36,467 nt of DNA from a virus, in the IMG/VR virus record IMGVR_UViG_3300009073_000026, positions 1 through 36,467 of that record. One strand, 5' to 3'. Made by a program: the position numbers and the translations under genes. Under the pieces are notes generated by a model. It had not been told where the DNA came from and searched no databases. It saw only the letters and a list, made by a program, of their open reading frames with translations. Shown piece after piece: positions 1,685-36,467 of this stretch (its first letter is position 1; each line of letters starts with the position of its first letter).

Positions 1685-2893
1685 TTAATCGCTGCTGAAT
1701 TGCTCCAAGCCATCCATCGACGTTAGCTGGACATATTCATCAAATGTTTTTTCTTTTGCGTGGCCCGTAACCTTCATGATCAGATACTTTGGCACTCCCG
1801 ACATCAATGAGTTAGTAGCGAACGAGCGTCGCCCTGTATGCGACGTGATCAACTCCCATTTTTCAAACTCCGTGTCGACGTGAATATTCTTTTTGAAACT
1901 AGGCTTTACAAATTTGCTGTTTATACCAGCTATCCGACAAGCCTCTTTTATGGCTGGATTAGCTTTTTGAGAAGATATATGATTAACGCCTTGTTTTATT
2001 ATTTTGATAAATTTTTTGTTTGATGGTATATAAATCGGCTCGTTTGTTTTCTCAGAAAGTAGCTGAAAATATTGACGACCTTTGTAATTTACAAGACTGC
2101 TTTCTTTTAATTTATTCCAATCACCAAAACGCTGACCTGACCAACAGCCTAATAGTATCAGATTTCTTGCGTTCCTTATCCTAGCGTCGGCATATTCTTG
2201 ATCATATAATTTCTTGAGATCAGCCTCGCACAAGTAAGGAAAAAACGTTTTTCTCTTCTTGATCTTAAAGCTTAAGTATGTATCATTATCTTTTGAGCAA
2301 TGACCATCTTTTATGCAAGCTGTCATCATCGCCCGAAAAATTGACAAATTGCCAGCGGCTGTATTTGTGCTGACTCCGTATTTAGTAAAAAGCAATTTAG
2401 TAAACCCGTGAAAAAAAGCTTTATCGACATCATTAAAAGTGAGCTTGTTGTTATACTCATATACTTTGTCAATGACATTATTATATTTCCCTTCCAACCC
2501 TCGATCATACATTGGGTTATTTTTCAATTTAGCAATTTGCCTAAAATAATAAAATACGGTATCACTCTCTATGCCGAAAATCTTATCATAAGATTTAGAC
2601 ATATTCAGTTTATTGAGCTGACCCTTTATCATAAGCCGCCTCCAAGCATCGTTAAATTTAATTTCGATTTGATCTAGGAAATATTTTAGCGAGTTATATT
2701 CTTGGTACGTTTTTCGGGGCCGTTGTGTTTTTTTGTTCCAATCCCTTATCCTAACTTTTTCGCTTAAGAATTTTTTGAACGGCGGAGAATTTGGCAGCAA
2801 CTTGACAACCAATCTTATGTGGGCAAAACTATTCTTATCCTGTTTATTCACGCCTGACGACCGCACCTCTAAATAAAATTTTACCTTAGACAT
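1685..2893 (-). CDS. int: Tyrosine-family integrase
   Basis: This 402-residue site-specific recombinase should integrate and excise the phage at attP. It has an N-terminal arm-binding domain (about 1-95), a SAM-like core-binding domain (about 110-205) and a C-terminal catalytic domain. Catalytic residues are visible: Arg255 in GQRFGDW, a likely Lys282 in LLSEKTNE, His352 and Arg355 in SHTGRRSF, His378 in TGHAKEKTF, and the nucleophile Tyr387 in DEYVQL. Length and order match the integrases of Bacteroidetes prophages and conjugative elements. It reads away from the attP-like region that starts just upstream of its ATG, and it converges on the fibre gene. No excisionase is adjacent; the helix-turn-helix gene at 13862 is one remote candidate. 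Confidence 0.95.
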   Translation of the reverse strand: MSKVKFYLEVRSSGVNKQDKNSFAHIRLVVKLLPNSPPFKKFLSEKVRIRDWNKKTQRPRKTYQEYNSLKYFLDQIEIKFNDAWRRLMIKGQLNKLNMSKSYDKIFGIESDTVFYYFRQIAKLKNNPMYDRGLEGKYNNVIDKVYEYNNKLTFNDVDKAFFHGFTKLLFTKYGVSTNTAAGNLSIFRAMMTACIKDGHCSKDNDTYLSFKIKKRKTFFPYLCEADLKKLYDQEYADARIRNARNLILLGCWSGQRFGDWNKLKESSLVNYKGRQYFQLLSEKTNEPIYIPSNKKFIKIIKQGVNHISSQKANPAIKEACRIAGINSKFVKPSFKKNIHVDTEFEKWELITSHTGRRSFATNSLMSGVPKYLIMKVTGHAKEKTFDEYVQLTSMDGLEQFSSD

Positions 2894-4066: not shown

Positions 4067-4530
4067 AACAATCTTATACTCAAGCGGAGTGGAGAAAAAA
4101 GGTCTACAAGGCAAAGAGTCCGAATATTGTCGGGCTGCTAGTAAGGCGCAATAGAGTCGGCTTTGCAAACTGGGATCCACACACTAGGACTTTTAGAGAC
4201 CTATGCAATTTAAAGACCTTCGCCGCCTTCGCTAAAATATTGGAGATCAATCGAAAAGAGATCATAAAGCTCGTTATTGTCCTATCGACTAGGAACGAAC
4301 ACATGGAAAGCTTTTATCGATTGTTTTGTAATGAGTACGGTATCGAGTATCGAATCAGCACGATCGACAAACCGAGTGAGAACATTAATAAGAAAGAATT
4401 TAATAATAATGTCAAGTATGAAGGTCACAGCACTAGACTATCAAGGAAAGCTGCAATGATAGTTTATGATCACAAAGAAGATGAATTTTTAAAAAATCTG
4501 ATCAATGCCAACGATAAACAAAAAAAGTAA
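4054..4530 (+). CDS. Hypothetical protein
   Basis: 158 residues without a recognised domain. The N-terminal half is basic (WRKKVYKAKSPN, LLVRRNRVG) and the middle is helical with EINRKEIIKLVIVLSTRN; the C terminus is rich in Lys and Asn. The overlap with the gene before and the 26-base overlap with the HNH gene after support a real gene in a tightly packed operon. A role in DNA packaging or cutting is possible from its position only. Confidence 0.6.
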   Translation: MGNLKQSYTQAEWRKKVYKAKSPNIVGLLVRRNRVGFANWDPHTRTFRDLCNLKTFAAFAKILEINRKEIIKLVIVLSTRNEHMESFYRLFCNEYGIEYRISTIDKPSENINKKEFNNNVKYEGHSTRLSRKAAMIVYDHKEDEFLKNLINANDKQKK

Positions 4531-4888
4531 AAAGCGGCCTTGGCTTAAGCGTCAATCGTGGGGATCATCTAAGAGTCGATCGCACCGAAAAGATCAGATT
4601 GATTTTTATAACTCGCACAAATGGAGATCTAAAGCAAGGAAACATAAAGTAAAATATCCGCTTTGTGAAGTTTGTAAATTAAACAATATTATCAGAGCGG
4701 TCGAGGTAACTGATCATGTGATCCCTGTAGAGCTTGGTGGAGACCCGTTCGACGATCTAAACCTCAGATCATTATGTCACTCAGATCACAACAGTAAAAG
4801 CGCGAGAGAGAAGAACAGACCTATCTACAGATCAGAAGTAAACGGCAACGGCTTATTAATACCAAGATACCCACTACAAGAAATATGA
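4505..4888 (+). CDS. HNH endonuclease (first of two)
   Basis: 127 residues. The HNH fold is visible as CEVC (Cys54, Cys57), then TDHVIPVELGGDP with Asp70-His71, then DLNLRSLCHSDHN with Asn86, Cys91 and His95. A basic N terminus of about 50 residues precedes it. HNH proteins next to the terminase genes work with the large terminase in DNA maturation in several cos phages, and the position here fits. A homing-type nuclease is the alternative. The ATG overlaps the previous gene, and the stop overlaps the ATG of the next (ATGA). Confidence 0.88.
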   Translation: MPTINKKSKKRPWLKRQSWGSSKSRSHRKDQIDFYNSHKWRSKARKHKVKYPLCEVCKLNNIIRAVEVTDHVIPVELGGDPFDDLNLRSLCHSDHNSKSAREKNRPIYRSEVNGNGLLIPRYPLQEI

Positions 4889-5229
4889 AATATATAACTA
4901 ACACGGATCTCAGACTCGAAGTATACAATAAAACACAGGGCCGTTGTGCTTACTGTGGTAATCATATAAGTTATGACGATATGGAGGTCGATCACATCAT
5001 AGCTCAATCAACATATCACAGCATAGTTAAACATGGCTTACAACCTACTTTCTTAAAGCATCTAAGCGTAGACGATCTTGATCATATAGATAACCTTCAT
5101 TCGTCTTGTAATAGGTGCAATACAGTCAAGTCTAACAAGCCGCTCGAATACTTTAGAAAAAAAGATCAGCTGTTCTACTATGAGACACATACTCAGCTGC
5201 AGGATCGAAAAAAAAATATAAATAATTAG
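4885..5229 (+). CDS. HNH endonuclease (second of two)
   Basis: 114 residues with a second, distinct HNH core: CAYC (Cys21, Cys24), EVDHIIAQS with Asp36-His37, DNLHSSCNRCN with Asn70, Cys75 and Cys78, and Lys82. It is not a duplicate of its neighbour, because the zinc-ligand spacing differs and it has no basic N-terminal arm. Translation is coupled to the preceding gene by an ATGA overlap. The tandem pair sits directly before the terminase genes. One may be the packaging nuclease and the other a homing enzyme. Confidence 0.88.
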   Translation: MKYITNTDLRLEVYNKTQGRCAYCGNHISYDDMEVDHIIAQSTYHSIVKHGLQPTFLKHLSVDDLDHIDNLHSSCNRCNTVKSNKPLEYFRKKDQLFYYETHTQLQDRKKNINN

Positions 5230-6170: not shown

Positions 6171-7868
6171 ATGAGCAGTAAGAAAAAATCATATCATAAA
6201 TTTGTGGACTCGGTTACGTCGGGCAAACTACCATCGAACAGAAACATAAAGCTGGCGGTATCTCGATTTTCTAGAGACCTAAAGTCCTGCAATAAAAAAA
6301 ACTATCCGTTTTATTTTGATGAAGATGCAGCCGATAGGGCGATCACTTTTGTCAAACGCTTACGACACACAAAAGGAGAATTTGCAAATAGACAGTTTGA
6401 CCTCCAGCAGTATCAGGCTTTCATACTTGCAAACATATTCGGCTGGAAGAAAAAAGATAATAACAAAAGGAGATTCACAAAGGTATATACTGAGATCGCT
6501 CGAAAAAATGGCAAATCAGAATTTGCAGCGGCAATAGGTATTTATTTATTATATGCTGATAATGAACAAGGGGCAGAGATATACACAGCGGCCACAAAAA
6601 AAGATCAAGCGAAAATCGTTTTTAATATCATCAAATCGATGGTCAAGAAAATGAAACTTGAGTCACCAAAAGCAAAGAAGACGATCGGCGTACACACTAA
6701 CAACATCCATGTATTAAGTACTGAAAGTCTAGTCGAACCTTTGCCAGCCGACTCCGACAAGCTCGACGGCCTCAACCCTCACGGCGCGATCATTGACGAA
6801 TATCACTCGCACAAATCAAGCGACTTACTAGAGGTGATCGAAACGGGTATGGGCGCGAGACTGCAACCGCTACTATTCATTATCACGACGGCTGGATTCA
6901 ATCGTTACTCTCCATGTTTTAGATTACGAAAAGTATGTATCGACGTTCTTGAAGATCACAAAGTAGATGATACTTTATTTTCTATGATCTTCACACTTGA
7001 TGAAGGCGACGACTGGAAGCAAGAAACATCTTGGATAAAGTCAAACCCTAATCTCGGCAACGCTCCATACTTGAGCTATATGCAATCGCAACTGACTAAG
7101 GCTATTAACGAAGGGGCGGACAAAGAGATACAATTTAAAACCAAAAATTTAAATATTTGGACTAGCACGGGATCGACTTGGATCAGTGCAGACAAGTGGA
7201 GTGCAAACGGCCAATCGTTTGACATTAAAAAACTTAAAGGGCGTCGAGCTTACGGAGGCTTAGATCTTTCGTCGGTCTCTGATCTATCTGCATTCGTGTT
7301 AGTGTTTCCGCCAATCGACAAGGATCCGACTACTTATATCGTCGGTCGATACTATTGTCCAGAAGAGGGTGCAAAAAAGAGATCAGCAAAAGACGGCGTT
7401 CCCTACCTACAATGGGCCAAAGATAAAGCAATCAAGATGACTCCTGGCAATGTCATCGATTACGACTACATCAAAAAGGATATACTCGACGCTGCTGAGG
7501 ATTACGATATTATCGTCGTCGAGTTTGATAGATATAACTCAAGTCAAATCGTCATCGACTTAACTGAGGAAGGTATCGCGATGGATGCTTTTAGTCAGAC
7601 ATACGTTCACATGAACGCGCCGATAAATCAGATCGAGAAAATGATACTAAATAACGAGGCCAATCACGGCGGCGACGTCGCGCTTGCGTGGATGGCTGGT
7701 AATGTCATGATCAAACTAGATGCGAACGGAAATAGAAAATTTGATAAAGCAGCGAGTACTGAGAAAATCGATGGAATGGTCGCGCTGGCAATGGCAGTCG
7801 GCGGATGGATGACAGAAGAAGTCATCGGCCCAAGCGTATACGAATCAAAAGGAATAACGAAATTATAA
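6171..7868 (+). CDS. terL: Terminase large subunit
   Basis: 565 residues; the packaging motor ATPase and nuclease. The Walker A-like ARKNGKS (Lys115) and the Walker B region GAIIDEYH (Asp209, Glu210) are present, followed by the coupling motif FIITTAG. The RNase H-like nuclease shows YGGLDLSSVSDLSAF, then VVEFDRYNS and a C-terminal EKIDGMVALAMAVGG. The sequence type is the Terminase_1 family found in HK97-like phages, normally upstream of the portal. Here the portal is about 11 kb downstream, beyond the lysogeny and replication genes. Confidence 0.97.
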   Translation: MSSKKKSYHKFVDSVTSGKLPSNRNIKLAVSRFSRDLKSCNKKNYPFYFDEDAADRAITFVKRLRHTKGEFANRQFDLQQYQAFILANIFGWKKKDNNKRRFTKVYTEIARKNGKSEFAAAIGIYLLYADNEQGAEIYTAATKKDQAKIVFNIIKSMVKKMKLESPKAKKTIGVHTNNIHVLSTESLVEPLPADSDKLDGLNPHGAIIDEYHSHKSSDLLEVIETGMGARLQPLLFIITTAGFNRYSPCFRLRKVCIDVLEDHKVDDTLFSMIFTLDEGDDWKQETSWIKSNPNLGNAPYLSYMQSQLTKAINEGADKEIQFKTKNLNIWTSTGSTWISADKWSANGQSFDIKKLKGRRAYGGLDLSSVSDLSAFVLVFPPIDKDPTTYIVGRYYCPEEGAKKRSAKDGVPYLQWAKDKAIKMTPGNVIDYDYIKKDILDAAEDYDIIVVEFDRYNSSQIVIDLTEEGIAMDAFSQTYVHMNAPINQIEKMILNNEANHGGDVALAWMAGNVMIKLDANGNRKFDKAASTEKIDGMVALAMAVGGWMTEEVIGPSVYESKGITKL

Positions 7869-7869
7869 A

Positions 7870-8088
7870 ATGAATCTCGACATAAGCATACTGCAAAAAG
7901 ATGGCTACTGGAAAAAATATCTTGAGATCATTGCCGATCATGATACTCGCGATAATAAACACGCCTACGAAATACTTGAGAGCTTACTAAATGATAAATT
8001 TAATATATCTCGATACGGATCATACAATACTTTCAGAAATGCCAAGCACCAATATTTTAAAAAGAAGAAACGAACAATCCGTAAATAG
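7870..8088 (+). CDS. Small hypothetical protein after terL
   Basis: 72 residues, not recognised. The protein is helical by appearance and ends in a strongly basic tail (KKKKRTIRK), which suggests nucleic-acid contact. It starts one base after the terL stop codon, so it is expressed with packaging genes. It converges on the minus-strand lysogeny operon with only 11 bases between stop codons and no clear terminator. Confidence 0.6.
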   Translation: MNLDISILQKDGYWKKYLEIIADHDTRDNKHAYEILESLLNDKFNISRYGSYNTFRNAKHQYFKKKKRTIRK

Positions 8089-8099
8089 CAAATGGCTAA

Positions 8100-8702
8100 C
8101 TACTTACTCTGCCAATCCTTAAGGGCTCTGCTGAAAAGCGACACGATATTTTCAAAGTCTTCTTTAGGCATCTTGAATACAGCGCTGTCGCTTATTATAT
8201 AAAAGTTGCGGCGACCATACTCGGATTTTGATGGATCGTAAACACCCGATAGCTGGATTTGCTCTAAACCGCATTTACAACTTGTCTTTAGTTTGCCGCC
8301 CCTCATATCTACATTGCCTATTAATGTATATACCTTATTAGCGCACTGAACGAACGTCTCTAGGTCTAGGAGTGTCAGGCTGGCAAAACTGTACCGCTTG
8401 TCGCGGTCGATGCTGACGTTGCTAGATACAGCTACATCACCTAAAAGACTACCTATAGAAATAGATGACAGCTCGGACTTTGTTTCTGTAGTGTTGATAC
8501 TCACAGTGAACGCCCTTGTCGTGTCTGTAGCAGCTAGGTCATAGCGACGGACATATTCTAAATCTATCTGAGAATGCAACTTGCTGAATAATGGACTATA
8601 AGATTTATTAAAACTGATCAACGTCTCCTCGACCGACTGGCCGATGGTGAGGGTACTAAGGGCCAGCAGGGCGATTATTGGAAGTATATTCTTTATTATC
8701 AT
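8100..8702 (-). CDS. Exported protein co-transcribed with the repressor
   Basis: 200 residues. A Sec signal peptide is clear: basic start, hydrophobic stretch LPIIALLALSTLTIG, and a cut near GQS. The rest is not recognised; it has a Ser/Thr-rich middle and a Cys pair in SCKCG. It begins 2 bases after the repressor-like gene on the same strand, so it should be made in the lysogen. That pattern fits a lysogenic-conversion protein, for example one that blocks superinfection at the envelope, but no family match is claimed. Confidence 0.75.
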   Translation of the reverse strand: MIIKNILPIIALLALSTLTIGQSVEETLISFNKSYSPLFSKLHSQIDLEYVRRYDLAATDTTRAFTVSINTTETKSELSSISIGSLLGDVAVSSNVSIDRDKRYSFASLTLLDLETFVQCANKVYTLIGNVDMRGGKLKTSCKCGLEQIQLSGVYDPSKSEYGRRNFYIISDSAVFKMPKEDFENIVSLFSRALKDWQSK

Positions 8703-8704
8703 AA

Positions 8705-9115
8705 CTAATTTTCTGAGACCTTGTCTTGATTTTTCTTGATGCGTTTTATCTCAAGCTCCAAATGTTTGATCCGTAGCTCTACAGCTTTGAGATTCATATC
8801 ATGTACTCTTATAAGCTTATCAACTGCCGCCCCTATCGCGTAACTAGGCTCTGCGACCACGCTCGGCTTACTATCAGCTAAAGGAAGATATGGCTGATAT
8901 TCCCCAGGCGAAACACTTGTGAAATATTCTGGAAATTGTCCGTATATGGCATTTCTGACTGAGTCTGTTCTTTTTGTTCGATTATATATTACACTATTTA
9001 ATTGATCGGGAGTTAAATTAACGAGTGGAGCTAACTCTTTAATACTCAAAGTTTTAGCAGTCTTAGACAGATCAACTTTTAGTCGCTCGATTATTTTAAT
9101 TAGTTCTAAATCCAA
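8705..9115 (-). CDS. Repressor-like helix-turn-helix protein
   Basis: 136 residues from a TTG start. A helix-turn-helix is likely at about 26-45 (IKELAPLVNLTPDQLNSVIY). The C-terminal third (about 92-136) is a charged coiled coil (LKAVELRIKHLELEIKRIKK) suited to oligomerisation. There is no S24-type protease domain, so self-cleavage like lambda CI is not expected. Opposite orientation to the Cro-like gene across a palindrome-rich gap marks it as the lysogeny repressor. It also heads the exported-protein operon. Confidence 0.75.
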   Translation of the reverse strand: MDLELIKIIERLKVDLSKTAKTLSIKELAPLVNLTPDQLNSVIYNRTKRTDSVRNAIYGQFPEYFTSVSPGEYQPYLPLADSKPSVVAEPSYAIGAAVDKLIRVHDMNLKAVELRIKHLELEIKRIKKNQDKVSEN

Positions 9116-9132
9116 AATTTTTAGTAAAAATT

Positions 9133-9148
9133 ATTGTTTATAAACAAT
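9133..9148. promoter_or_regulatory. Operator palindrome O1 in the repressor/Cro switch
   Basis: ATTGTTTATAAACAAT is a perfect 16-base palindrome, 17 bases upstream of the repressor TTG. It is well placed for autoregulation by either divergent protein. The half-site TGTTTA recurs in the second element. Confidence 0.65.
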
Positions 9149-9152
9149 TAAT

Positions 9153-9173
9153 TTGTATGTTTACATCGTACAA
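9153..9173. promoter_or_regulatory. Operator-like imperfect palindrome O2
   Basis: An imperfect dyad with TTGTA and TACAA ends around GTTTACAT, on the Cro side of O1 and about 20 bases from it centre to centre. Together with O1 it could form a two-operator switch. A TTG at its first base could extend the Cro-like gene, but the ATG at 9195 is preferred because this site looks regulatory. Confidence 0.45.
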
Positions 9174-9194
9174 CAAATAAAGAATTTGTTACAT

Positions 9195-9422
9195 ATGATA
9201 AAAATAGAATATACAGAAGCAGACGTTTTGACTTTTACGACATTCCCTGCACTCGCACGGGCGGCTGGTTTAAACTATAGAACTGTGCGCAATTATCTTT
9301 CTCAAAAGATTGCACGACCTAAGCCTTATGTCGTCAAACTGATCAACGAATCTGCTACTAAATTGAAACTTGATAAAATTAAACAGTTGACGGAAGATAG
9401 ACAAGCCGCGCAAGCGGTATAA
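9195..9422 (+). CDS. Cro-like helix-turn-helix protein
   Basis: 75 residues. A helix-turn-helix lies at about 18-37 (PALARAAGLNYRTVRNYLSQK), followed by a basic helix. Small size, a single DNA-binding domain and divergence from the repressor-like gene fit a Cro or early activator role. The frame can be extended to a TTG at 9153, but that would place coding sequence over the second operator dyad. The frame ends before two strong hairpins. Confidence 0.75.
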   Translation: MIKIEYTEADVLTFTTFPALARAAGLNYRTVRNYLSQKIARPKPYVVKLINESATKLKLDKIKQLTEDRQAAQAV

Positions 9423-9507
9423 AACACCTGAGATATTTTCGTCAAGTATAATATAAATCCTTAGCACACGCCGCGCTAAAAAGCTAGCACGGCAAATCAC
9501 ACCCTTG

Positions 9508-9534
9508 AAAGGCTCAGTAGTAACTGACCTTTTA
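9508..9534 (+). terminator. Hairpin after the Cro-like gene
   Basis: AAAGGCTCAGT and ACTGACCTTT pair with a one-base bulge and end in TTTT. It precedes a second, stronger terminator by about 15 bases. Confidence 0.45.
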
Positions 9535-9546
9535 TATCTAGTTATG

Positions 9547-9591
9547 CCCTTGGTTGGGATTTCGAAACTTTATCCAACCAGGGGTTTTTTT
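9547..9591 (+). terminator. Rho-independent terminator of the immediate-early transcript
   Basis: Arms CCCTTGGTTGG (9547-9557) and CCAACCAGGGG (9574-9584) pair with one G-U wobble and are followed by seven T. It separates the Cro-like gene from the replication genes, so readthrough or antitermination could control entry into the early programme. Apart from the two hairpins, the 260-base gap between genes shows nothing else. Confidence 0.8.
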
Positions 9592-9682
9592 AAAGCTTGA
9601 CATATGGCACTTTTATCTAATGCGTTGTTTAGCTGAATAAAATATTGACAATCATTATTGATAATTAACAAACAAATAAAGC

Positions 9683-9922
9683 ATGAAACTTGGAGACAAA
9701 TTACAAGACAGAGTAACAGGATTCACAGGTATAGCGGTTGCCGAAATACAGTACTTAAACGGCTGCAAACAATTTTGCATAAAGCCACGAATGTCAGAAG
9801 ATGGCAAAATGCCTGAAGGGCAATACATAGATATACACCAATTGCAACTAGTCCCAGTTGATCGTGTTGCGCCAGCCTCAATAAGCCCAGGAGGAGTTCA
9901 TCCTGACCAACCAAGTGAATAA
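9683..9922 (+). CDS. Conserved small phage protein of unknown function
   Basis: 79 residues. The N-terminal core (GDKLQDRVTGFTGIAVAEI, then YLNGCKQFCIKP) resembles a family of short phage and prophage proteins that share the pattern KVTGFxG...YLxGCxQ. No biochemical role is known to me. The C terminus is Pro-rich. It has an AT-rich leader with TTGATAATTAA just upstream and is the first gene after the strong terminator. Confidence 0.7.
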   Translation: MKLGDKLQDRVTGFTGIAVAEIQYLNGCKQFCIKPRMSEDGKMPEGQYIDIHQLQLVPVDRVAPASISPGGVHPDQPSE

Positions 9923-9941
9923 AAATAAACAAAGTACTATT

Positions 9942-9996
9942 CGGCCCGACCACACCAAAAAACCAAATCCAGCGTCGGGATATCTTGGTCGGGTCG
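9942..9996 (+). promoter_or_regulatory. Long inverted repeat in the leader before 10090
   Basis: CGGCCCGACCA (9942-9952) pairs with TGGTCGGGTCG (9986-9996) with one G-U wobble across a 33-base loop. A shorter TAGTAG/CTACTA hairpin follows near 10027. There is no T run after either, so this looks more like a structured leader or protein-binding site than a terminator. Confidence 0.4.
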
Positions 9997-10089
9997 AGGG
10001 TACTCTGCAAAATATTACACTCCTTAGTGTTAGTAGTTTCTACTAGGGGGTCGTAGTTCCTTTTTCCCATAATTAAGAGGGTCGGAGTC

Positions 10090-10431
10090 ATGAGCCGACC
10101 CAATTTTCTAAGAAAATCAAAAACTTACAACAAAATGAAAAAACACCTTGAGCTATTCGAGGAGTATAATAAAGAAATGCCTGAAATCTATCGGCGATAC
10201 AAAAGGATCGTTTCCGAAAGAATACAAATGGGCGTCAGGTCTATCTCCAGCCAAAAAATATTTAATGAGATAAGAAAAGAGATCCGATACGAAATGTCGA
10301 TCAGAAACTCACGCCGACGATTTAAGCTTGACAACAATTACGCCCCGATCTATGCTCGAAAATTCATTTCAGATTATCCGAAATATTCCTATTTATTCAA
10401 ATTCAGAAAAACGAAACATGATGAACACTAA
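10090..10431 (+). CDS. Conserved phage protein of unknown function
   Basis: 113 residues, strongly basic. The middle and C-terminal parts (SISSQKIFNEIRKEIRYE, then FKLDNNYAPIYARKFIS) resemble a widespread family of phage early proteins of unknown function, in which a helical DNA-contacting unit is followed by a conserved NNxxxxxYAR segment. It overlaps the next gene by 14 bases and lies in the early block before the replication initiator. Confidence 0.7.
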   Translation: MSRPNFLRKSKTYNKMKKHLELFEEYNKEMPEIYRRYKRIVSERIQMGVRSISSQKIFNEIRKEIRYEMSIRNSRRRFKLDNNYAPIYARKFISDYPKYSYLFKFRKTKHDEH

Positions 10432-10765
10432 TAAGAAATATCGCGCCATGCCGCTGGCGTATTTCATCAACAGGCACGGTCGACTTTTTATCTTTAATAA
10501 AAAGATACGTCACTCTGCATCAAGCAATTTTTCATTCGACGAGTATCGTGGCGTTAGTTATGTCGGGCTAAAGTTTCCCTTACCTGGAGTCGCCTCGCTG
10601 CCTATCTCTGCAACTGCCAAAATGGAACAGATATCTAAACAAGTCGCCTTAGCTAAATATGAAATTCAGTATAAAGCTCTGATCAGTTTTCTCAAAACGA
10701 CCAAGCGATCAAATATCCACCAGGTCAATACACTGCCATCGAGTCGGAAAATATTTAGTCGATAG
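10418..10765 (+). CDS. Hypothetical early protein
   Basis: 115 residues from ATG 10418 (a second ATG follows directly). A longer frame reaching 10328 would lie entirely inside the previous gene and is not favoured. No domain is recognised; the protein is basic, with FDEYRGVSYVGLKFPLPG as its most distinctive segment. The overlap with the gene before suggests translational coupling. Confidence 0.55.
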   Translation: MMNTNKKYRAMPLAYFINRHGRLFIFNKKIRHSASSNFSFDEYRGVSYVGLKFPLPGVASLPISATAKMEQISKQVALAKYEIQYKALISFLKTTKRSNIHQVNTLPSSRKIFSR

Positions 10766-10792
10766 TTTTTTTAATTCACAACTGATAATTAA

Positions 10793-11620
10793 ATGAGGAT
10801 AAACGGATTCTTACAGCTCAAGGAATTTTACAAGATCGTGCTCACTAATCGACACCCTATAAAGCCGCAACACATTAGCCTATACATATTCTATCTTAAT
10901 CAGAATAACAGTTGCGGCTGGATAGAGTGGTTTCAATGCCCTTTTGAGTTTGCTATGGCAGGAGCTAGCTTGACCAATCGTAGGACTTATTATAAATGTC
11001 TCGAAGATCTACAAGTTTGGAAACTGATCGAATACCAAAAAGGGTCGAATCAGTGGACTGCTCCACTGATAAAAGTGGTTGTGCTTAAACGCACATGCAC
11101 TGCCACTTCCACTGCCATACGCACTGCCACTTCCACTGCCACACGCACTGCCACACGCACTGCCACACGCACTGCCACTTCCACTGCCATACATAATAAA
11201 ACTTTAAACTATAAACCTATAACGGGTAACAGCGAACTCGGAGAAAATGCCCCTGAAGAAATACCGATCAATGAATCAAAACAAAAATTTGAGATCGAGG
11301 CGGTCGCCTATCTCGCATCAAAACACCTGTACACGCCAAGCGCGTCGCAGATCGCGCCGCTGCGATCGCTAGAGCGTAGGATAAGGAAATCAATCGAGAG
11401 CCGCGAGGGCCAACAATGGAGAGAAGTATCGACGGAGGCTGTTATCGATTTTTTCAAAGAGATGATAGAAAGCTTGGACGACTGGCAAAGGAAAAACAGA
11501 TTCCAGCCTGACCTATGGGCGAGGGATTTCGACGCGATCGTCAACGGAATGAGACCAACGCCCTCAGCTCTACCGTATTCGATCGACTACTCTAATTGTA
11601 AAAATGACTGGCTAACATGA
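10793..11620 (+). CDS. Replication initiator-like winged-helix protein carrying origin-like repeats
   Basis: 275 residues. The N-terminal 95 (FAMAGASLTNRRTYYKCLEDL, WKLIEY) read as a winged helix of the kind seen in DnaD-like and phage O-type initiators. A linker of about 32 residues is a low-complexity Thr/Ala/Arg/Ser repeat (TATS and TATR units), encoded by eight 12-base DNA repeats. The C-terminal part (WREVSTEAVIDFFKEMIESL, FQPDLWARDFDAIV) would contact the helicase loader. It overlaps the DnaC-like gene by 4 bases, the classic initiator-loader order. The alternative is a transcription regulator. Confidence 0.75.
   Translation: MRINGFLQLKEFYKIVLTNRHPIKPQHISLYIFYLNQNNSCGWIEWFQCPFEFAMAGASLTNRRTYYKCLEDLQVWKLIEYQKGSNQWTAPLIKVVVLKRTCTATSTAIRTATSTATRTATRTATRTATSTAIHNKTLNYKPITGNSELGENAPEEIPINESKQKFEIEAVAYLASKHLYTPSASQIAPLRSLERRIRKSIESREGQQWREVSTEAVIDFFKEMIESLDDWQRKNRFQPDLWARDFDAIVNGMRPTPSALPYSIDYSNCKNDWLT
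11099..11194 (+). repeat. Eight 12-base iterons, putative replication origin
   Basis: Eight tandem units of the ACTGCCACACGC type (starts at 11099, 11111, 11123, 11135, 11147, 11159, 11171 and 11183), varying only in bases 8-12. An AT-rich run (about 11193-11221, containing ATAATAAAACTTTAAAC) follows at once. Iterons plus an AT-rich unwinding element inside the initiator gene is the layout of the lambda origin within gene O. Confidence 0.6.
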
Positions 11621-12390
11621 ATCAACAAAAGACGAGCGAGTATATGGATTACGAAATGGCAGTCACTTTGCAAAAGACTTGTTTTAGTGACCGCGAGAAA
11701 AAACCGAGCGCACCTACTAGGATAAGCGAAGTGACGCCAACAGCAAAAAGAAGGATAAAGCGAGGGCATAAGAAAGTAAAAGTAGCGACGTCCGAAATGC
11801 TGATCACATACGACGGACTCCGTCGAGGTCTACATAAAACCCTCAAGGGTCGTGTCAAAGGCCCTTTGAAATTTACAGATGATCAAACGAAGATTATTAG
11901 ACAGCTTGTTAGATATTTTACTGGCGACCCGAATAGCGAACTTGATCCCGATAAATCAATCTACTTATACGGGAGTTATGGAACAGGCAAAACCACACTA
12001 TTGAGATCAATACTATCGCTGCTACATGATGCCGATCGTCGAGGGTACTCAAATAGTTATTCGTGTGAAATGCTCGACTACAAAGAATTGATCTACAAAA
12101 TAAAAAGCAAGGGCGACTCAAGCATCATTACAAACTATGATAATGTAATGATCGACGACCTAGGCTACACGGAGCAGTCAGAAATAAATATATACGGAAA
12201 CTCAGAGGATCTAGTCACGTCGATAATTTACAATAGACACAAAAAACGCCGACGCCTCAAGACTCACATCACTAGCAACCTATCGCCTGAGAAGTTACTC
12301 AAAAGTCATGGCGAGGGCACTTACTCAAGACTGGTCGAGATGTGCAATATAATTTTTTATCAATCAGAAAACTTAAGATTAAAAAAATGA
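11617..12390 (+). CDS. DnaC/DnaI-like helicase loader ATPase
   Basis: 257 residues. The AAA+ core shows Walker A GSYGTGKTT (119-127), Walker B VMIDDLGY (177-184), a sensor 1 region (THITSNLSPE, about 221-230) and an arginine-bearing segment YSRLVEMC near the C terminus. The basic N-terminal 60 residues would hold the helicase or initiator. It should load the host replicative helicase at the phage origin; no phage helicase is visible in the window. It is translationally coupled to the initiator by an ATGA overlap. Confidence 0.92.
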   Translation: MNQQKTSEYMDYEMAVTLQKTCFSDREKKPSAPTRISEVTPTAKRRIKRGHKKVKVATSEMLITYDGLRRGLHKTLKGRVKGPLKFTDDQTKIIRQLVRYFTGDPNSELDPDKSIYLYGSYGTGKTTLLRSILSLLHDADRRGYSNSYSCEMLDYKELIYKIKSKGDSSIITNYDNVMIDDLGYTEQSEINIYGNSEDLVTSIIYNRHKKRRRLKTHITSNLSPEKLLKSHGEGTYSRLVEMCNIIFYQSENLRLKK

Positions 12391-12767
12391 CAGGCAAAGC
12401 AGCACAAAATACAAACAGCCAGCAACGAATTGAACTGGAGAGAAAAACCCATACCCTTGATGAAGTCAAAGAGTATCACAAATCAATGCTTGAGATAATT
12501 GAAGATTCGGAAGAGAAGGACGCACAGATCGCCCGACTGGAGACCAAACTAGAAGATAAGCACGACGAAATTGAAGAACTAGAAGAAGAGATAAGCGATA
12601 AAAACGAAATACTGACAGAGTTTGAAGATTCATTTGTTGCGTCCGCTCACAACGGTCACGAACCTATCATTCTCGAAAAAATAGAGCAACTACTGACCAA
12701 GTGCAGAAACGGACAACTCACTTACAAAGAAATAGAGGCATCGCTGGACGGGATGCTATCTGACTGA
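12387..12767 (+). CDS. Acidic coiled-coil protein
   Basis: 126 residues from the ATG that overlaps the loader stop (ATGA). A frame reaching 12342 exists but would intrude into the loader gene. Residues about 30-80 form a strongly charged coiled coil (ARLETKLEDKHDEIEELEEE). The rest is helical (ILEKIEQLLTKCRNGQLTYKEIEASL). The function is unknown; a replication adaptor role is inferred from its place between loader and clamp. Confidence 0.7.
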   Translation: MTGKAAQNTNSQQRIELERKTHTLDEVKEYHKSMLEIIEDSEEKDAQIARLETKLEDKHDEIEELEEEISDKNEILTEFEDSFVASAHNGHEPIILEKIEQLLTKCRNGQLTYKEIEASLDGMLSD

Positions 12768-12800
12768 TAATTAAAAACAAATAACTAATCACGATAAATT

Positions 12801-13865
12801 ATGAAAATAGAAAAGTCAATACTTGAGTCGGCTATCGCTAAAATATTTCCACTAGTATCGGAGTCGCCCGTTTTACCGATCCTCGACACGATCTTGATCA
12901 AGTCAAGCGGTAAAAACAAGATCCTATTCGCAGCGAGTAACATCAGGACGACCGCATCGATCACCATCAAGGCGGCACACGCTAAGCCGCTGCAAATGTG
13001 TGTCAATGGAAAACTACTATATAACACGCTGAAAAATTCTCCCGACCAGCCGATCAAACTAGAGGCGGTCAAAAAAATGCTAAGGATCACAACGACGTCG
13101 GGCGTGTATGAAATTGCAATCGAGTCACCTGACGATTTTCCGACACTACCCAAGGCAGACCCAGCCGCTGAACTTGTCGATAACTTTATCCCATCTATCG
13201 CGAGCGTCGCGTTTTCTGCTGCGACAGACCAGCTCAGGATCAATCTAACAGGAATTTATATATCTCCCGAAGTCATAGCCTCAACGGACGCGCATAGACT
13301 TACTATCATAAAGCAGCCGATCAAGATCCCTAAGCCGATCACGCTACCAGCCGAAGCCGCTAAGTACACCAGCACGATCGAGCTACCTGAGCAAATAAGC
13401 ATATTTGCAACAGATAACAACCTCACTATATACGCTCCAATCGAGGACGGCGAAATACTGATCAGCTCTAAACTTATCGCCGAAAAATATCCTGACATCG
13501 CGGCGGTGATACCAGCCAAGAAAAAAGCATCCATCAGCACACTATCACGATCAGCCCTACAAGCGGCACTATCTAGGATAAGGATATACAGCGATCAAGA
13601 CGACGTCTTTATCGCACTGACCAAGAACGAATTAATACTGAGAGCAAAGAGCGCGACCTATCAGAACCAAGCTAAAGAGGCCATCGATATTGACGGCAAT
13701 GACAAGGAAGAAGAACACTATATAAACGCTAAATATGTAGCGGACGCGCTCAAGTTTGTAGCCGACGAAGATCTACAGATCGAGACCCACAAAGCAAATA
13801 TTTTGTTTTATCCAGTCGGCGACCGTTCTAAATTTTGTCTAGTAATGAATAAAACGAAACCATGA
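12801..13865 (+). CDS. dnaN: Sliding clamp, DNA polymerase III beta subunit-like
   Basis: 354 residues, about the length of bacterial DnaN and built of the expected three similar domains (about 1-115, 120-240, 245-354). Family marks are LPILDTILI near the N terminus, YEIAIESPDDFPTLP, the second-domain GIYISPEVIASTDAHRL, ISSKLIAEKYPDIAAVIP, and a final domain ending KFCLVMN. It should form a dimeric ring tethering the host polymerase to DNA. It lies between the helicase-loader block and a helix-turn-helix gene whose ATG overlaps its stop. A full-length clamp is uncommon in a siphophage this small, and no polymerase accompanies it. Confidence 0.93.
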   Translation: MKIEKSILESAIAKIFPLVSESPVLPILDTILIKSSGKNKILFAASNIRTTASITIKAAHAKPLQMCVNGKLLYNTLKNSPDQPIKLEAVKKMLRITTTSGVYEIAIESPDDFPTLPKADPAAELVDNFIPSIASVAFSAATDQLRINLTGIYISPEVIASTDAHRLTIIKQPIKIPKPITLPAEAAKYTSTIELPEQISIFATDNNLTIYAPIEDGEILISSKLIAEKYPDIAAVIPAKKKASISTLSRSALQAALSRIRIYSDQDDVFIALTKNELILRAKSATYQNQAKEAIDIDGNDKEEEHYINAKYVADALKFVADEDLQIETHKANILFYPVGDRSKFCLVMNKTKP

Positions 13866-14176
13866 TGTTATCACCTGAGACCCAAGCTATCGCCGACTTA
13901 CTTAAGGCAATATTAAAACCAGCCATCAGCGAGGTCGTACTAGAAGCCGTCGACATAGGCACGACCCTCAAGGATTTGCCGCCCGTTATGAGTCAGGCGA
14001 CTGTCGCTCGCGCTCTAGACAAACATCCCTCTACGATATGCTCCTGGATCAAGAGCGGACATATAAAGACCGTATTCGTGCATGATATCGCACACATCGA
14101 AAAAACTGAATTACTGCGATTTATAGTCGATAGGAATATAGGCAAAGGAGCAGCTAGAAAAAAACTGAGCGCATGA
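13862..14176 (+). CDS. Helix-turn-helix DNA-binding protein (excisionase-like domain)
   Basis: 104 residues. Residues 43-64 (MSQATVARALDKHPSTICSW) form a MerR/excisionase-type helix-turn-helix, followed by a wing (IKTVFVHDIAHIE). The first 40 residues are helical and may dimerise. ATGATG at the start overlaps the dnaN stop. It could be an excisionase working with the distant integrase, or an early transcription regulator; the sequence does not decide. Confidence 0.7.
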   Translation: MMLSPETQAIADLLKAILKPAISEVVLEAVDIGTTLKDLPPVMSQATVARALDKHPSTICSWIKSGHIKTVFVHDIAHIEKTELLRFIVDRNIGKGAARKKLSA

Positions 14177-14331
14177 TCATAGTATCATTGATCGGCTTTG
14201 TGTTTTTCGTTGTATGGTTTATCGTTAAGATCATCGAGCTTATCATTAAGCGTAATCGGCCAGTCGATAAACACGGCGAAGTAATCAGGTATCGCTGGCA
14301 ACGTCACCAGGTCAAAGCTGATCATCAGTAA
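14173..14331 (+). CDS. Small one-segment membrane protein
   Basis: 52 residues, starting at an ATG that overlaps the previous stop by 4 bases. It begins MIIVSLIGFVFFVVWFIVK, a single hydrophobic segment at about 2-24, and ends in a basic, His-rich cytoplasmic tail (RYRWQRHQVKADHQ). The function is unknown. Such small early membrane proteins can affect the host envelope or exclude other phages, but that is only a possibility. Confidence 0.6.
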   Translation: MIIVSLIGFVFFVVWFIVKIIELIIKRNRPVDKHGEVIRYRWQRHQVKADHQ

Positions 14332-14343
14332 TATATTATCGAC

Positions 14344-14556
14344 ATGAATTATAATCAATGGCATACCTCGGAAAATCTAAAAGCAGAAAGAGACAAAGCC
14401 GTCGCGCTTATCGAATTGATCGACAAGAAAATAAAGTCGGACTTTAGGATATACGACTTTAGTAAATGCAAAAATTGCGGAGGTCGCGGCGGATATCTCG
14501 GCGGCGATTATCATACAGTATGGAAAAATTGTACTTATTGCAAATCAAATAATTAA
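14344..14556 (+). CDS. Small zinc-ribbon protein
   Basis: 70 residues. A helical N-terminal half is followed by CKNC (Cys42, Cys45) with a GGRGGYLGG turn, and CTYC (Cys63, Cys66), a DnaJ-like zinc ribbon. It follows the small membrane-protein gene after 12 bases and belongs to the early block. The function is not known. Confidence 0.65.
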   Translation: MNYNQWHTSENLKAERDKAVALIELIDKKIKSDFRIYDFSKCKNCGGRGGYLGGDYHTVWKNCTYCKSNN

Positions 14557-14573
14557 AACAAATAAATCACGAC

Positions 14574-14951
14574 ATGAAACTAATACCAGTATTCGACACA
14601 AGTAACATCACGGTCGGCGACACGCTACTGATCGAAACTAGAGACTCAGGTCTCGACGGTCTGCAGCTGCGTAGGATAACAGAGATACACGCCGATCTAA
14701 TATTACTCGATGACAAAGACCTCGACCGCCGAATCATATTTTTAAAGGACTATCAAACAGGGAGCGAGAAGTGCTGGGTATTGATAGCGTCTAAAGTTAT
14801 GAGTCTCAAAGAGATCTTGGCACGGATTCCGCACAGCAAAGAAATCGGATCAACGGTCTGTGATTGCTACAAAAAAATGGGAGGGCCACACACCAAGACT
14901 TGCAAATGTGAAAAATGCGGAAACCTTATTGCTGGACGACCCCGACCCTAA
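14574..14951 (+). CDS. Hypothetical protein with C-terminal cysteine cluster
   Basis: 125 residues. The N-terminal 75 look like a small beta-barrel (VGDTLLIET, ITEIHADLILLDD). The C-terminal part has CDC (Cys96, Cys98) and CKCEKC (Cys110, Cys112, Cys115), probably a zinc site. It is not recognised. A 23-base string identical to part of the fibre gene at 31383 begins just after its stop. Confidence 0.6.
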   Translation: MKLIPVFDTSNITVGDTLLIETRDSGLDGLQLRRITEIHADLILLDDKDLDRRIIFLKDYQTGSEKCWVLIASKVMSLKEILARIPHSKEIGSTVCDCYKKMGGPHTKTCKCEKCGNLIAGRPRP

Positions 14952-15003
14952 AGGCAATACCGTGACATTACCAATCATCAATTAATAATTATCAATTTAA
15001 AAA

Positions 15004-15558
15004 ATGGTTTACGACAAAAAGAAAATATTACCGCTGGATATCAAGCGGCTTACTATCTCATTTTTAAACGGCAATCGCGACCAAAAAAACTATCTACGTC
15101 GAAAATGGGATATTATAGAATATCATATGAGAGGCCAGCTAGATCTATGGTGGCTAAGTAAGGGCGGACAGATATCTATACAATTCGTCAAAGATGGCCG
15201 CTCCCAATCTGCTATCGGACTCGACGGACTAGGTAGTTACAAAGAAAGACAAAAGGCGAGTATGCAGATCAATAACAATCACGCAAAAGATCACCGCATC
15301 ATACTGCACGAATCTACTCACATGATCGGCTGCAAGCATCAGCACGACGAAGCTAAATTACTAAAGGACTCGGATAGATTCGGCGTCAATGTGAGTCAAG
15401 ACGTAGATAGTATAACCAGGTATCGGCAAGCTGGCGAAAAGCGAAATTACTATCTGAGTCTCGGAGATATAGATTTTTTGCACCGCTATGACGAATTTAG
15501 AGCTATCGGCGAACAGTGGCGAAGAGATGAAGCAAAACGAAGAGGGCGGAGTTTATGA
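15004..15558 (+). CDS. Astacin-like metzincin metalloprotease
   Basis: 184 residues. The long zinc motif HExxHxxGxxH is complete (His102, Glu103, His106, Gly109, His112 in HESTHMIGCKHQHD), and the HQHD/DRFGVNV stretch after it resembles astacins. Where astacins have the Met-turn SIMHY, this protein reads SITRY, so the Met is Thr while the Tyr that can bind zinc is kept. The C-terminal YLSLGDIDFLHRY matches the astacin ending. There is no signal peptide or prodomain, so it would act inside the cell, or after lysis. The target is unknown. Confidence 0.75.
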   Translation: MVYDKKKILPLDIKRLTISFLNGNRDQKNYLRRKWDIIEYHMRGQLDLWWLSKGGQISIQFVKDGRSQSAIGLDGLGSYKERQKASMQINNNHAKDHRIILHESTHMIGCKHQHDEAKLLKDSDRFGVNVSQDVDSITRYRQAGEKRNYYLSLGDIDFLHRYDEFRAIGEQWRRDEAKRRGRSL

Positions 15559-15594
15559 AAAAAGAGTATTTGTTTCGTTTCTAGATCAACCGTA

Positions 15595-16818
15595 TTGAAA
15601 AAAAAGAAAACAAAAAAAGCTTTGGTCGTCTTAAGCGTATTCGATGGAATGGGCTGCGGACAGATCGCGCTCAAAGAAATGGGGATCCCGATAAAAAAAT
15701 ATTACTCCGCCGAAATCGACAAATTTGCAAACGAACAGACTCGACATAATTTTCCTCATACTATTCAGCTAGGTAGCGTCACTGAAGTAAGGGCCAAGGA
15801 TCTCGACAGGATAGATCTATTTATAGGGGGGTCGCCCTGCCAAGGATTCTCTTTTGCTGGTAAGCAGCTCAATTTTAACGACCCTCGCTCAAAACTATTT
15901 TTTGAATATACGAGGCTTTGGAATGAGATAAAAGAGATCAATCCAAAAGCAAAATTTTTGCTGGAAAATGTGAATATGCGAAAAGAGTATTTGAGGGTTA
16001 TATCTCAATATCTCAGCATTTACCCTGTACGCATAAACAGCAATCGTGTAAGTGCTCAAAATCGTGATCGCTGGTACTGGACTAATATCAAAACAGAAGA
16101 GGTCGGAATATTCAGAGATCTAACGAGCGGAATACCTCAACCTCCCGATCAAGGTATATTACTCAAAGATATACTGCAAGACGAAAGCGAGATCGATGCA
16201 AAATACTATTTGAGCGAAAAAGCCCTTAAAAATTTTCATGATAATAATTTAATAATGGAGACAAGCGTCCGCATATCGGGCACTACGAAAACACCAACCG
16301 CAAAAGGTACTAACTCAAGACATTGGGTCTACGAGACAAACGGCAAGATCGGCTGCGTGTCCGCAACTTGCTACAAACAACCTCAGCAAATAATAGTCCG
16401 AACACCCAGAGAAGCTAGATCTAAAGAAGCAAAAGAGGAACGCAGAAGAACTGGAAAAAATAAATTCAAAGCCAAAAATATCGAACTAACTAAAGAGCAA
16501 ACGATATTTATAAGCGAACCGACGATAAAGGGATTCGCAGAAATACAACCAGGTCAATGTTTCGACGCTCAACATCCCAAAAGCAAAACAAGAAGAGGGC
16601 GAAAAATGGCAAAAAAAACAAACTGCCTATTAACCGCTAACGAGTTTATCCGATACACTCACGACTACAAGCTCCGCCGCCTCACTCCGACTGAGTGCGC
16701 CAGGCTGCAAAATATCCCTGACTGGTATGAGTGGATCGTCAGCGATACACAGATATACAAAATGCTAGGGAATGGCTGGACGGTCGGCGTGATCAAGCAT
16801 ATTTTTAGTTATTTATAA
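15595..16818 (+). CDS. C5 cytosine DNA methyltransferase (orphan)
   Basis: 407 residues from a TTG start. The motifs are in order: cofactor-binding SVFDGMGCGQIAL (14-26), catalytic PCQGFSFAGK with Cys82, ENV (124-126), QNRDR (155-159), a variable target-recognition region (about 230-330, rich in Lys and Arg), and the C-terminal LRRLTPTECARLQ and MLGNGW. It adds a methyl group to cytosine in a sequence that cannot be read from the protein. No restriction gene is near, so it probably protects phage DNA from host restriction or alters host expression. Confidence 0.93.
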   Translation: MKKKKTKKALVVLSVFDGMGCGQIALKEMGIPIKKYYSAEIDKFANEQTRHNFPHTIQLGSVTEVRAKDLDRIDLFIGGSPCQGFSFAGKQLNFNDPRSKLFFEYTRLWNEIKEINPKAKFLLENVNMRKEYLRVISQYLSIYPVRINSNRVSAQNRDRWYWTNIKTEEVGIFRDLTSGIPQPPDQGILLKDILQDESEIDAKYYLSEKALKNFHDNNLIMETSVRISGTTKTPTAKGTNSRHWVYETNGKIGCVSATCYKQPQQIIVRTPREARSKEAKEERRRTGKNKFKAKNIELTKEQTIFISEPTIKGFAEIQPGQCFDAQHPKSKTRRGRKMAKKTNCLLTANEFIRYTHDYKLRRLTPTECARLQNIPDWYEWIVSDTQIYKMLGNGWTVGVIKHIFSYL

Positions 16819-35104: not shown

Positions 35105-36467
35105 ATGAAAAATCTTATACTAGCAATTTGTATTCTATACGCGGCGTCAGCTGCAGCACAAGACATCACCTTTATCAAGCTAGAAAGTGGAGTCGTCAAA
35201 GTCGATGACGATGGCGAACTATTCTACGCTCAACCTGACTTATACGAGATGGCCATCGACTCCGACTCAGATAGCATTAGATTCTATAAAGCTGGCGAAC
35301 GGAGTAACATTAGCTTTAAAGACGTGCCCATCTCTAGAGCGTTTGTTTACACAGATATCGACTGGCTTAATTGCGACCCACAACAACCGCCAGCAAATAA
35401 TAATATCGAGGCCGTCGATTTTATTGTTTCTAATTTTTTCAAGTCAGGCGGCACGGAATACCAGACCATCGACAACATGATCGACCAAGACAACTTATAC
35501 GATAACGACGATACCAAGTACCCGACCCAGCAAAGTGTAAAAGCTTATGTCGACGGTAGTAGTGTGAGAGTGCTGGACGTCCTAGGATCAACGTCGGGAG
35601 TCGCCGCACTTAGCGCAAATAAAGGCACTGAGTTAGTCGACAGAATAGAGGAAATCAGAGACTATGTCGATGCCAGTTCTATACATCCGATAGACTCTTT
35701 AACATCAAGATCTACAGATCACGGTCTTAGTGCCAATCAAGGCCGCTTATTATACGACAGCTTAAAACTCAACAGAGTCAGCTTTAATCAGCTAGGCGAA
35801 TCTCTACAAGACAGCATCGATAATCTAGAGTCATACGTCAACACTCAAGACTCGTTCTTACAAGACAGCATCGATAATCTAGAAACATACGTCAACACTC
35901 AAGACTCGACCTTACAAGACAGCATCGATAATCTAGAAACATATGTCAACACTCAAGACTCGACCTTACAAGACAGCATCGATAATCTAGAGTCATACGT
36001 CAACACTCAAGACTCGTTCTTACAAGACAGCATCGATAATCTAGAGTCATACGTCAACACTCAAGACTCGATCTTACAAGACAGCATCGATAATCTAGAA
36101 ATATATGTCAACACTCAATACTCCTCACTACAAGACAGCATCGACAATATAGAATTATCGGCTGGAGCGGACGGCCTCGACTGTTGGGATCTAAACGGCA
36201 ACGGTACTGGAGACCCAGCTGAAGATATCAATAACGATAGCGTCTACGATGCAAACGATTGTAAAGGAGCAGACGGAGCAGCTGGAGCAGATGGAAACAA
36301 TGGAGCAGACGGAGCACCAGGAACAGCTGGCACGGATGGCACGGATGGCACGGATGGAAATAATGGAAACAACGGAGCGGACGGTCTAGACTGTTGGGAT
36401 CTAAACGGCAACGGCACTGGAGACCCAGCTGAAGATATCAATAACGATAGCGTCTACGATGCGAACG
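35105..36467 (+). CDS. Collagen-like tail fibre, N-terminal part (3' end off the window edge)
   Basis: The frame runs open from this ATG to the window end (454 codons) with no stop. MKNLILAICILYAASAAAQ is a Sec signal peptide. After it come DTKYPTQQSVKAYVDG and two fibre spacers (GVAALSANKGTEL, HGLSANQGRLLYDSL). Seven 18-residue helical repeats (LQDSIDNLETYVNTQDST) and the collagen/EF-hand-like modules follow. The same modules open the window at base 2 in a frame that ends at 1678, so both parts belong to one gene of at least about 980 codons. It is probably the receptor-binding fibre. Confidence 0.88.
   Translation, partial: MKNLILAICILYAASAAAQDITFIKLESGVVKVDDDGELFYAQPDLYEMAIDSDSDSIRFYKAGERSNISFKDVPISRAFVYTDIDWLNCDPQQPPANNNIEAVDFIVSNFFKSGGTEYQTIDNMIDQDNLYDNDDTKYPTQQSVKAYVDGSSVRVLDVLGSTSGVAALSANKGTELVDRIEEIRDYVDASSIHPIDSLTSRSTDHGLSANQGRLLYDSLKLNRVSFNQLGESLQDSIDNLESYVNTQDSFLQDSIDNLETYVNTQDSTLQDSIDNLETYVNTQDSTLQDSIDNLESYVNTQDSFLQDSIDNLESYVNTQDSILQDSIDNLEIYVNTQYSSLQDSIDNIELSAGADGLDCWDLNGNGTGDPAEDINNDSVYDANDCKGADGAAGADGNNGADGAPGTAGTDGTDGTDGNNGNNGADGLDCWDLNGNGTGDPAEDINNDSVYDAN
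35804..36160 (+). repeat. 54-base tandem repeats coding an 18-residue stalk
   Basis: Copies begin with CAAGACAGCATCGA at 35807, 35861, 35915, 35969, 36023, 36077 and 36131 (the last partial), exactly 54 bases apart. The protein unit LQDSIDNLETYVNTQDST has hydrophobic positions spaced 4-3-4-3-4, a pattern close to an 18/5 helix period, suited to a nearly straight trimeric stalk. Confidence 0.9.
36164..36467 (+). repeat. Collagen / EF-hand-like repeat modules (right copies)
   Basis: Two copies begin at 36164 and 36374 (210 bases apart), the second cut by the window end after 94 bases. It differs from the copy at base 2 by two visible bases, so it is either a separate copy or a variant of the same one. 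Confidence 0.85.

Follow-up and report, generated by a model that had tools for sequence, protein, structure and literature searches.

The window, by which we mean the whole stretch of viral DNA analysed here (36,467 nucleotides; IMG/VR record IMGVR_UViG_3300009073_000026), encodes a phage beta sliding clamp in an early replication block, and we favour the reading, to which we assign a probability of roughly 0.55, that this protein forms a ring which the host clamp loader places on DNA and which tethers the host Pol III. The beta clamps of phages already form a recognised family, and the window clamp adds to it a member whose partner-binding pocket has diverged.

Table 1. Replication-block features and the integrase gene of the window, with the evidence for each assignment
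Feature	Position	Strand	Basis or remark
Integrase	1685-2893		phrog_1, 6e-21
Putative replication initiator	10793-11620	+	N-terminal part weakly matches ORFs of Tenacibaculum and Polaribacter phages
Candidate origin iterons	11092-11189	+	About eight tandem 12-bp repeats within the putative initiator gene
DnaC-like helicase loader ATPase	11617-12390	+	phrog_50, E 1.6e-22
Coiled-coil-like ORF, 141 aa, GTG start, between loader and clamp	12342-12767	+	Weak coiled-coil-type matches
Beta sliding clamp (DnaN-like), three domains	12801-13865	+	354 aa; Pfam, PHROG, NCBIfam, PDB, AlphaFold2
Clamp C-terminal end, M-N-K-T-K-P and stop	13845-13865	+	Alignments, sequence read
Small HTH-like protein, start overlapping the clamp stop	13862-14176	+	HTH matches below cut-off

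Results

The product of the clamp gene (Table 1) carries the Pfam clamp domains, all three of them and in their usual order, with scores that exceed the curated cut-offs (bits/cut-off: PF00712, 47.4/24.4; PF02767, 43.3/27; PF02768, 39.9/27), and it matches phrog_947, the family of phage DNA polymerase processivity factors, with an E value of 2e-49 (residues 1-349 to positions 5-361 of the 368-position profile). Its PDB sequence matches are bacterial clamps, the best being 8dt6 (E 1.5e-18); these matches, together with those in Pfam and PHROG, rule out a chance ORF. An AlphaFold2 monomer, built on an alignment of 34 relatives (33 from IMG/VR contigs and one from a MAG locus), reached a pLDDT of 93.0 and a pTM of 0.86; the best 50 Foldseek PDB rows for this model were all DnaN clamps or clamp complexes, and VIA-align superposed it on E. 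coli beta (2pol) with Z 36.5 and 2.1 A over 346 residues. Because the domains, the model, the Foldseek rows and the superposition agree, the prediction from the monomer model that the protein is a three-domain ring subunit is well supported, and the full-length, three-domain DnaN-like clamp of the original prediction has held up. Identity to any aligned clamp is about 18-26%, and the invariant core residues are kept. One score counts against the reading that we favour: in NCBIfam TIGR00663, the equivalog of cellular DnaN, the window clamp obtains 131.9 bits, below the cut-off of 137.65. The possibility that the gene is a host dnaN in a mis-assembled piece of chromosome was ruled out, since the neighbouring genes are phage genes; tblastn found no match to dnaA, recF or gyrB in the window piece around the clamp (L093).

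The DnaC-like loader that had been predicted to accompany the clamp was confirmed by its family match (Table 1), and its matches include the DnaC-like loaders of Bacteroides and Porphyromonas phages. It lies directly downstream of the putative initiator gene, which it overlaps by 4 nt and whose own identity rests on a weak match; the two may form a replication module of the lambda O/P type. The presence of an initiator near the clamp, also predicted, thus finds weak support: the N-terminal part of the protein resembles an ORF of Tenacibaculum phage Gundel_1 named 'replication protein' or 'primosomal protein' (E 2e-4), and also ORFs of Polaribacter phages (3e-3), but no family match was obtained in Pfam, PHROG or NCBIfam. 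The single-sequence model of this protein was poor (pLDDT 34.5). The unit length of the iteron-like repeats within its gene is a multiple of three, and we regard this array as a candidate origin; the ori of lambda lies inside gene O. When 50 clamp-bearing records and the window were considered together, the phrog_50 loader match was found in one of the 51, the window itself, and a DnaB domain in only one other record. An initiator, a DnaC-like loader and a clamp are thus seldom found together in this sample, weighted as it is towards alphaproteobacterial-type clamps.

Searches of the whole window gave no match to family A (PF00476) or family C (PF07733) polymerases and none to the DnaB helicase domain (DnaB_C), and PHROG scans of 50 window ORFs gave no polymerase, primase or replicative helicase other than cross-matches. 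The sole primase-named match is the cytosine methyltransferase (weak, 3e-6), the sole helicase-named match is the loader with its P-loop (0.001), and phrog_6615, a family named DNA polymerase, is a match of the clamp itself. The predicted lack of a polymerase, primase and helicase beside the clamp thus agrees with what Pfam and PHROG detect in the window, from which a small piece may be missing. At both contig ends (1-1678 and 35751-36467) lies a tail fibre gene of the collagen-like type that has long repeats within it, and a tandem array with a 54-bp unit is found at 35805-36154. The contig probably broke within these repeats, and the two fibre-gene ends do not join in one frame; it is for these reasons that a small missing piece is possible.

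By 'no polymerase' we mean no replicase of family A, B or C, the types that the searches of these records covered; Rhizobium phage 16-3, for one, has an annotated 'DNA polymerase/primase'. The set of 50 clamp-bearing records, each searched whole, comprises 44 of the 80 IMG/VR loci that were kept and six named records; L031 and 35 others, near-copies or short pieces, were left out. One member, W06 (L010), is a piece of chromosome, which leaves 49 viral records. The set is weighted towards alphaproteobacterial-type clamps and contains several fragments, and its records are not independent of one another. DNA_pol_A, DNA_pol3_alpha and DNA_pol_B were each found in 0 of the 50, and the same searches were positive in 10, 10 and 5, respectively, of 14 control genomes. 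A tyrosine integrase match was present in 32 of the 50 records (28 above cut-off). With no polymerase in 50 records and an integrase in 32, a clear pattern emerges: records with a clamp as a rule have no polymerase of family A, B or C, although single fragmentary records prove little. If the clamp is replicative, the lack of a polymerase in these records means that a host polymerase must be its partner.

To compare the partner-binding pocket, we used the residue lists of PMC11139829, in E. coli numbering. At subsite I, where according to the passages of that source used here the clamp-loader subunit delta docks, 9 of 12 residues are identical to those of E. coli, the changes being G174A, R246A and V360L. 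At subsite II, four of the eight are identical (H175, N320, Y323 and M362), P363N, M364K and R365T are substituted, and V344 falls in a gap. The C-terminal end of the clamp (Table 1) replaces the usual M-P-M-R-V/L, which forms subsite II, and P363 is kept in 35, M364 in 30 and R365 in 34 of 37 compared phage clamps (the 40 picked, minus L004, L008 and L010). This end looks genuine, because the stop codon of the clamp overlaps the ATG of the next gene by 4 nt; a frameshifted C-terminus was rejected on the same overlap, which is not proof. In the E. coli clamp, P363S severely impairs the binding of Pol III alpha and Pol V, as stated in the part of PMC7261172 consulted, and for this reason the altered subsite II counts against the reading that we favour. 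Judged from the sequence, the changed subsite suggests a partner preference unlike that of a textbook clamp.

At the dimer interface, I272 is kept and F106 and L273 are both replaced by Y, so that the hydrophobic core has changed conservatively with respect to E. coli. All of the ion-pair residues except E304 are replaced, which is a further point against the favoured reading; charged residues of this interface are described as less conserved than the core (PMC11139829, in its interface passages). The six channel helices carry a net charge of +7 in the window clamp and +6 in E. coli beta. Taken together, the conserved fold, the dimer core and the channel charge suggest a working ring, presumably dimeric.

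In the tree, the window clamp is grouped with the clamps of a Salinibacter phage and a Cellulophaga phage and with PDB chain 8dt6 (support 98/95), and this group stands apart from the other phage clamps. The nearest branch to the window clamp is that of the Salinibacter phage clamp, its sister (92/75), and the branches joined here are long; without the Salinibacter and Cellulophaga phage rows, the window clamp still joins 8dt6 (98/90). L002, L009, L011, L020, L026 and L074 were left out of the second tree. A single clade of the window and all phage rows was weakly rejected (p-AU 0.029). This topology only suggests that phage clamps may have been acquired from hosts more than once, because the window sits between long branches.

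The clamp had been presented as unusual in a temperate siphophage of 36 kb, a view that must be given up: clamps are widespread, and they occur in Salinibacter phages of 35-36 kb and in the integrase-bearing Rhizobium phage 16-3. With the clamp as the tblastn query, 37 phage records matched, some of them mis-filed chromosomes (the 37 were checked in part for these), and one motif scan of IMG/VR returned 411 stretches, 305 of which encode relatives (80 loci were kept). BFVD contains 169 structural matches to the clamp at E <= 1e-3, many of them named phage beta clamps, and among 72,556 plasmid records 71 match, some of which are chromosome-sized. L010 (MT837359) and L008 (Acinetobacter phage MD-2021a), filed as phages, are chromosome pieces around dnaN-recF; the same very probably goes for a second Acinetobacter record and for two Salmonella records of 500 kb. 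In the clamp-bearing phage contig L018, a DnaA-like segment is found at 10585-10782 (53% over 66 aa).

Clamps that are common and host-derived in this clade would, by the original prediction's own account, have spoken against it; they are common among phages at large, but for the closest clade no close relatives were found. Searches of IMG/VR gave no close relatives of the clamp, portal or loader, and no clamp was detected with the one terminase relative found. A search of genome contigs for the clamp gave only one distant locus, megablast of 6171-16815 against phages gave no match, and the Salinibacter clamp as the query retrieved, apart from itself, just its sister and a single short contig.

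Several named systems can be set beside the window. Its clamp matches the phage clamps of PHROG 947 over the full length and has the same fold as the clamps of Caulobacter phage Sansa and of Nodularia and Gordonia phages, but it is set apart from PHROG 947 by an identity of only about 18-26% and by its odd C-terminus. The Salinibacter phages M1EM-1 and M8CR30-2 (Holosalinivirus, 35-36 kb) resemble the window in having a clamp, no annotated polymerase and a host of the FCB group; their clamp, however, precedes a Toprim primase/ATPase, whereas that of the window lies behind a DnaC-like loader, and the Salinibacter phage record differs further in that it gives no tyrosine-integrase match and keeps the clamp end MPVML. 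Rhizobium phages 16-3 and RR1-A and Aurantimonas phage AmM-1 likewise have a full-length clamp and gave no match to a polymerase of family A, B or C, but their clamps have an MPMRV-type end and other neighbouring genes. Phage 16-3 has integrase and repressor genes, and AmM-1 has a primase gene and a gene annotated with a DnaA C-terminal domain. Mycobacteriophage Corndog (cluster O) has a beta clamp and a DNA primase/polymerase, with no Pol III alpha named in the sections of PMC4351075 used here; it differs from the window in its host, in its gene order and in that those sections report no integrase. With E. coli beta and cellular DnaN, the window clamp has in common the three-domain fold and most of subsite I; it departs from cellular DnaN in its TIGR00663 score, in lacking a dnaA-dnaN-recF setting and in its changed subsite II.

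Discussion

According to the reading that we favour, the initiator, with the repeat array inside its own gene, would bind the origin, and the DnaC-like loader would bring in the host helicase, after which the host primase and Pol III would join. The host clamp loader would then place the phage ring, presumably a dimer, on phage DNA, where the ring would tether Pol III, possibly along with repair proteins, and the phage clamp gene would raise the supply of clamp during the replication burst. It is plausible that a phage supplies a clamp for the host replicase to use, and this agrees with the finding of no polymerase in 50 clamp-bearing records, with the binding of the partner presumed. SPP1 and similar phages use the host replicase holoenzyme (PMC5615212, in the part consulted).

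The altered subsite II leaves open whether the ring prefers other partners, opposes host replication or escapes clamp inhibitors. A clamp that had changed partners would still be loaded by the host through subsite I, would be poor for Pol III, and would tether proteins of recombination, repair, methylation or late transcription on phage DNA. The substitutions P363N, M364K and R365T at positions that most phage clamps keep, the effect of P363S on alpha and Pol V binding, and the activation of late transcription by T4 gp45 (PMC9690074, as far as the portion used goes) are consistent with such a change, but four residues of subsite II are retained and the clamp gene follows closely on those of the putative initiator and the loader. 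Moreover, no convincing clamp motif was found in the other window proteins: there is a single QLDLW, at residue 45 of ORF 15004-15558, and the chance of at least one match is 0.22. We hold this reading as tentative and unlikely. It is distinctly doubtful that the rebuilt subsite II marks a host-loaded ring that refuses the usual docking of the polymerase, and that the operon of initiator, DnaC-type loader and clamp would thereby supply a private platform for phage partners or a ring insensitive to inhibitors. A diverged pocket could indeed escape inhibitors, and clamp-targeting toxins exist (PMC12795458, in the part seen); on this basis the phage clamp might stand in for a host clamp blocked by a toxin, by the inhibitor of a competing phage or by a defence system, which we consider very unlikely, PADLOC having assigned the clamp no defence family in a scan of five window proteins.

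Alternatively, the protein might act as a decoy or poison: by occupying the host clamp loader or entering mixed rings, it would slow host replication to the benefit of the phage. The changed dimer ion pairs and subsite II could be understood in this way, and host clamps are among the targets of phages, as in the solved Gp168-beta-clamp complex (7evp, going by its title). The fold, dimer core and channel charge speak instead for a working ring, and a whole clamp is not needed for that job; such a role seems very improbable to us. The Gp168 of that complex we take to be a phage protein. A decaying or neutral cargo copy of the host dnaN would explain the long branch in the tree and the many substituted canonical residues, but hardly the open frame of normal length, the complete fold modelled at high confidence, the 4-nt overlap with the next gene and the retention of the invariant core residues, and we give this explanation almost no credence.

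Polymerase-less clamp phages are numerous, and why they need a ring of their own is a question that can be tested. Loading at subsite I and the tethering of the polymerase at subsite II may be separable in the window clamp, which would make this member, with its changed pocket, a useful test case. To judge from titles and the opening lines of abstracts, in a largely open-access literature, the role of a clamp in polymerase-less phages is hardly taken up; in the parts of PMC4351075 and PMC5463345 used here, phage clamps are annotated and nothing more is said of them.

The window contains portal, head, tape-measure and major-tail-protein genes, and its integrase gene makes a temperate lifestyle likely. 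Tenacibaculum and Polaribacter are genera of Bacteroidota, and because the phages that carry the relatives of the putative initiator have such hosts, a host of the Bacteroidota group is likely here too; a Bacteroidota promoter pattern gave matches no better than chance.

Further genes of the window deserve mention. A C5-cytosine DNA methyltransferase with a TTG start and a lysine-rich beginning is encoded at 15595-16818 (PF00145, 4.7e-44) and perhaps serves restriction evasion. ORF 15004-15558 (184 aa) contains an exact metzincin-type motif, HESTHMIGCKH, and gives weak reprolysin-like Pfam matches (E about 0.02, below cut-off); it is a possible phage-borne metalloprotease in the early region, as far as the sequence allows. 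On the minus strand, ORF 8100-8702 (200 aa) has a signal-peptide-like start, adjoins the leftward ORF 8705-9115 and has no family match; it may possibly be a surface or exclusion gene expressed in lysogeny. Finally, two overlapping HNH endonuclease genes (4505-4888 and 4885-5229) lie shortly before the small terminase gene.
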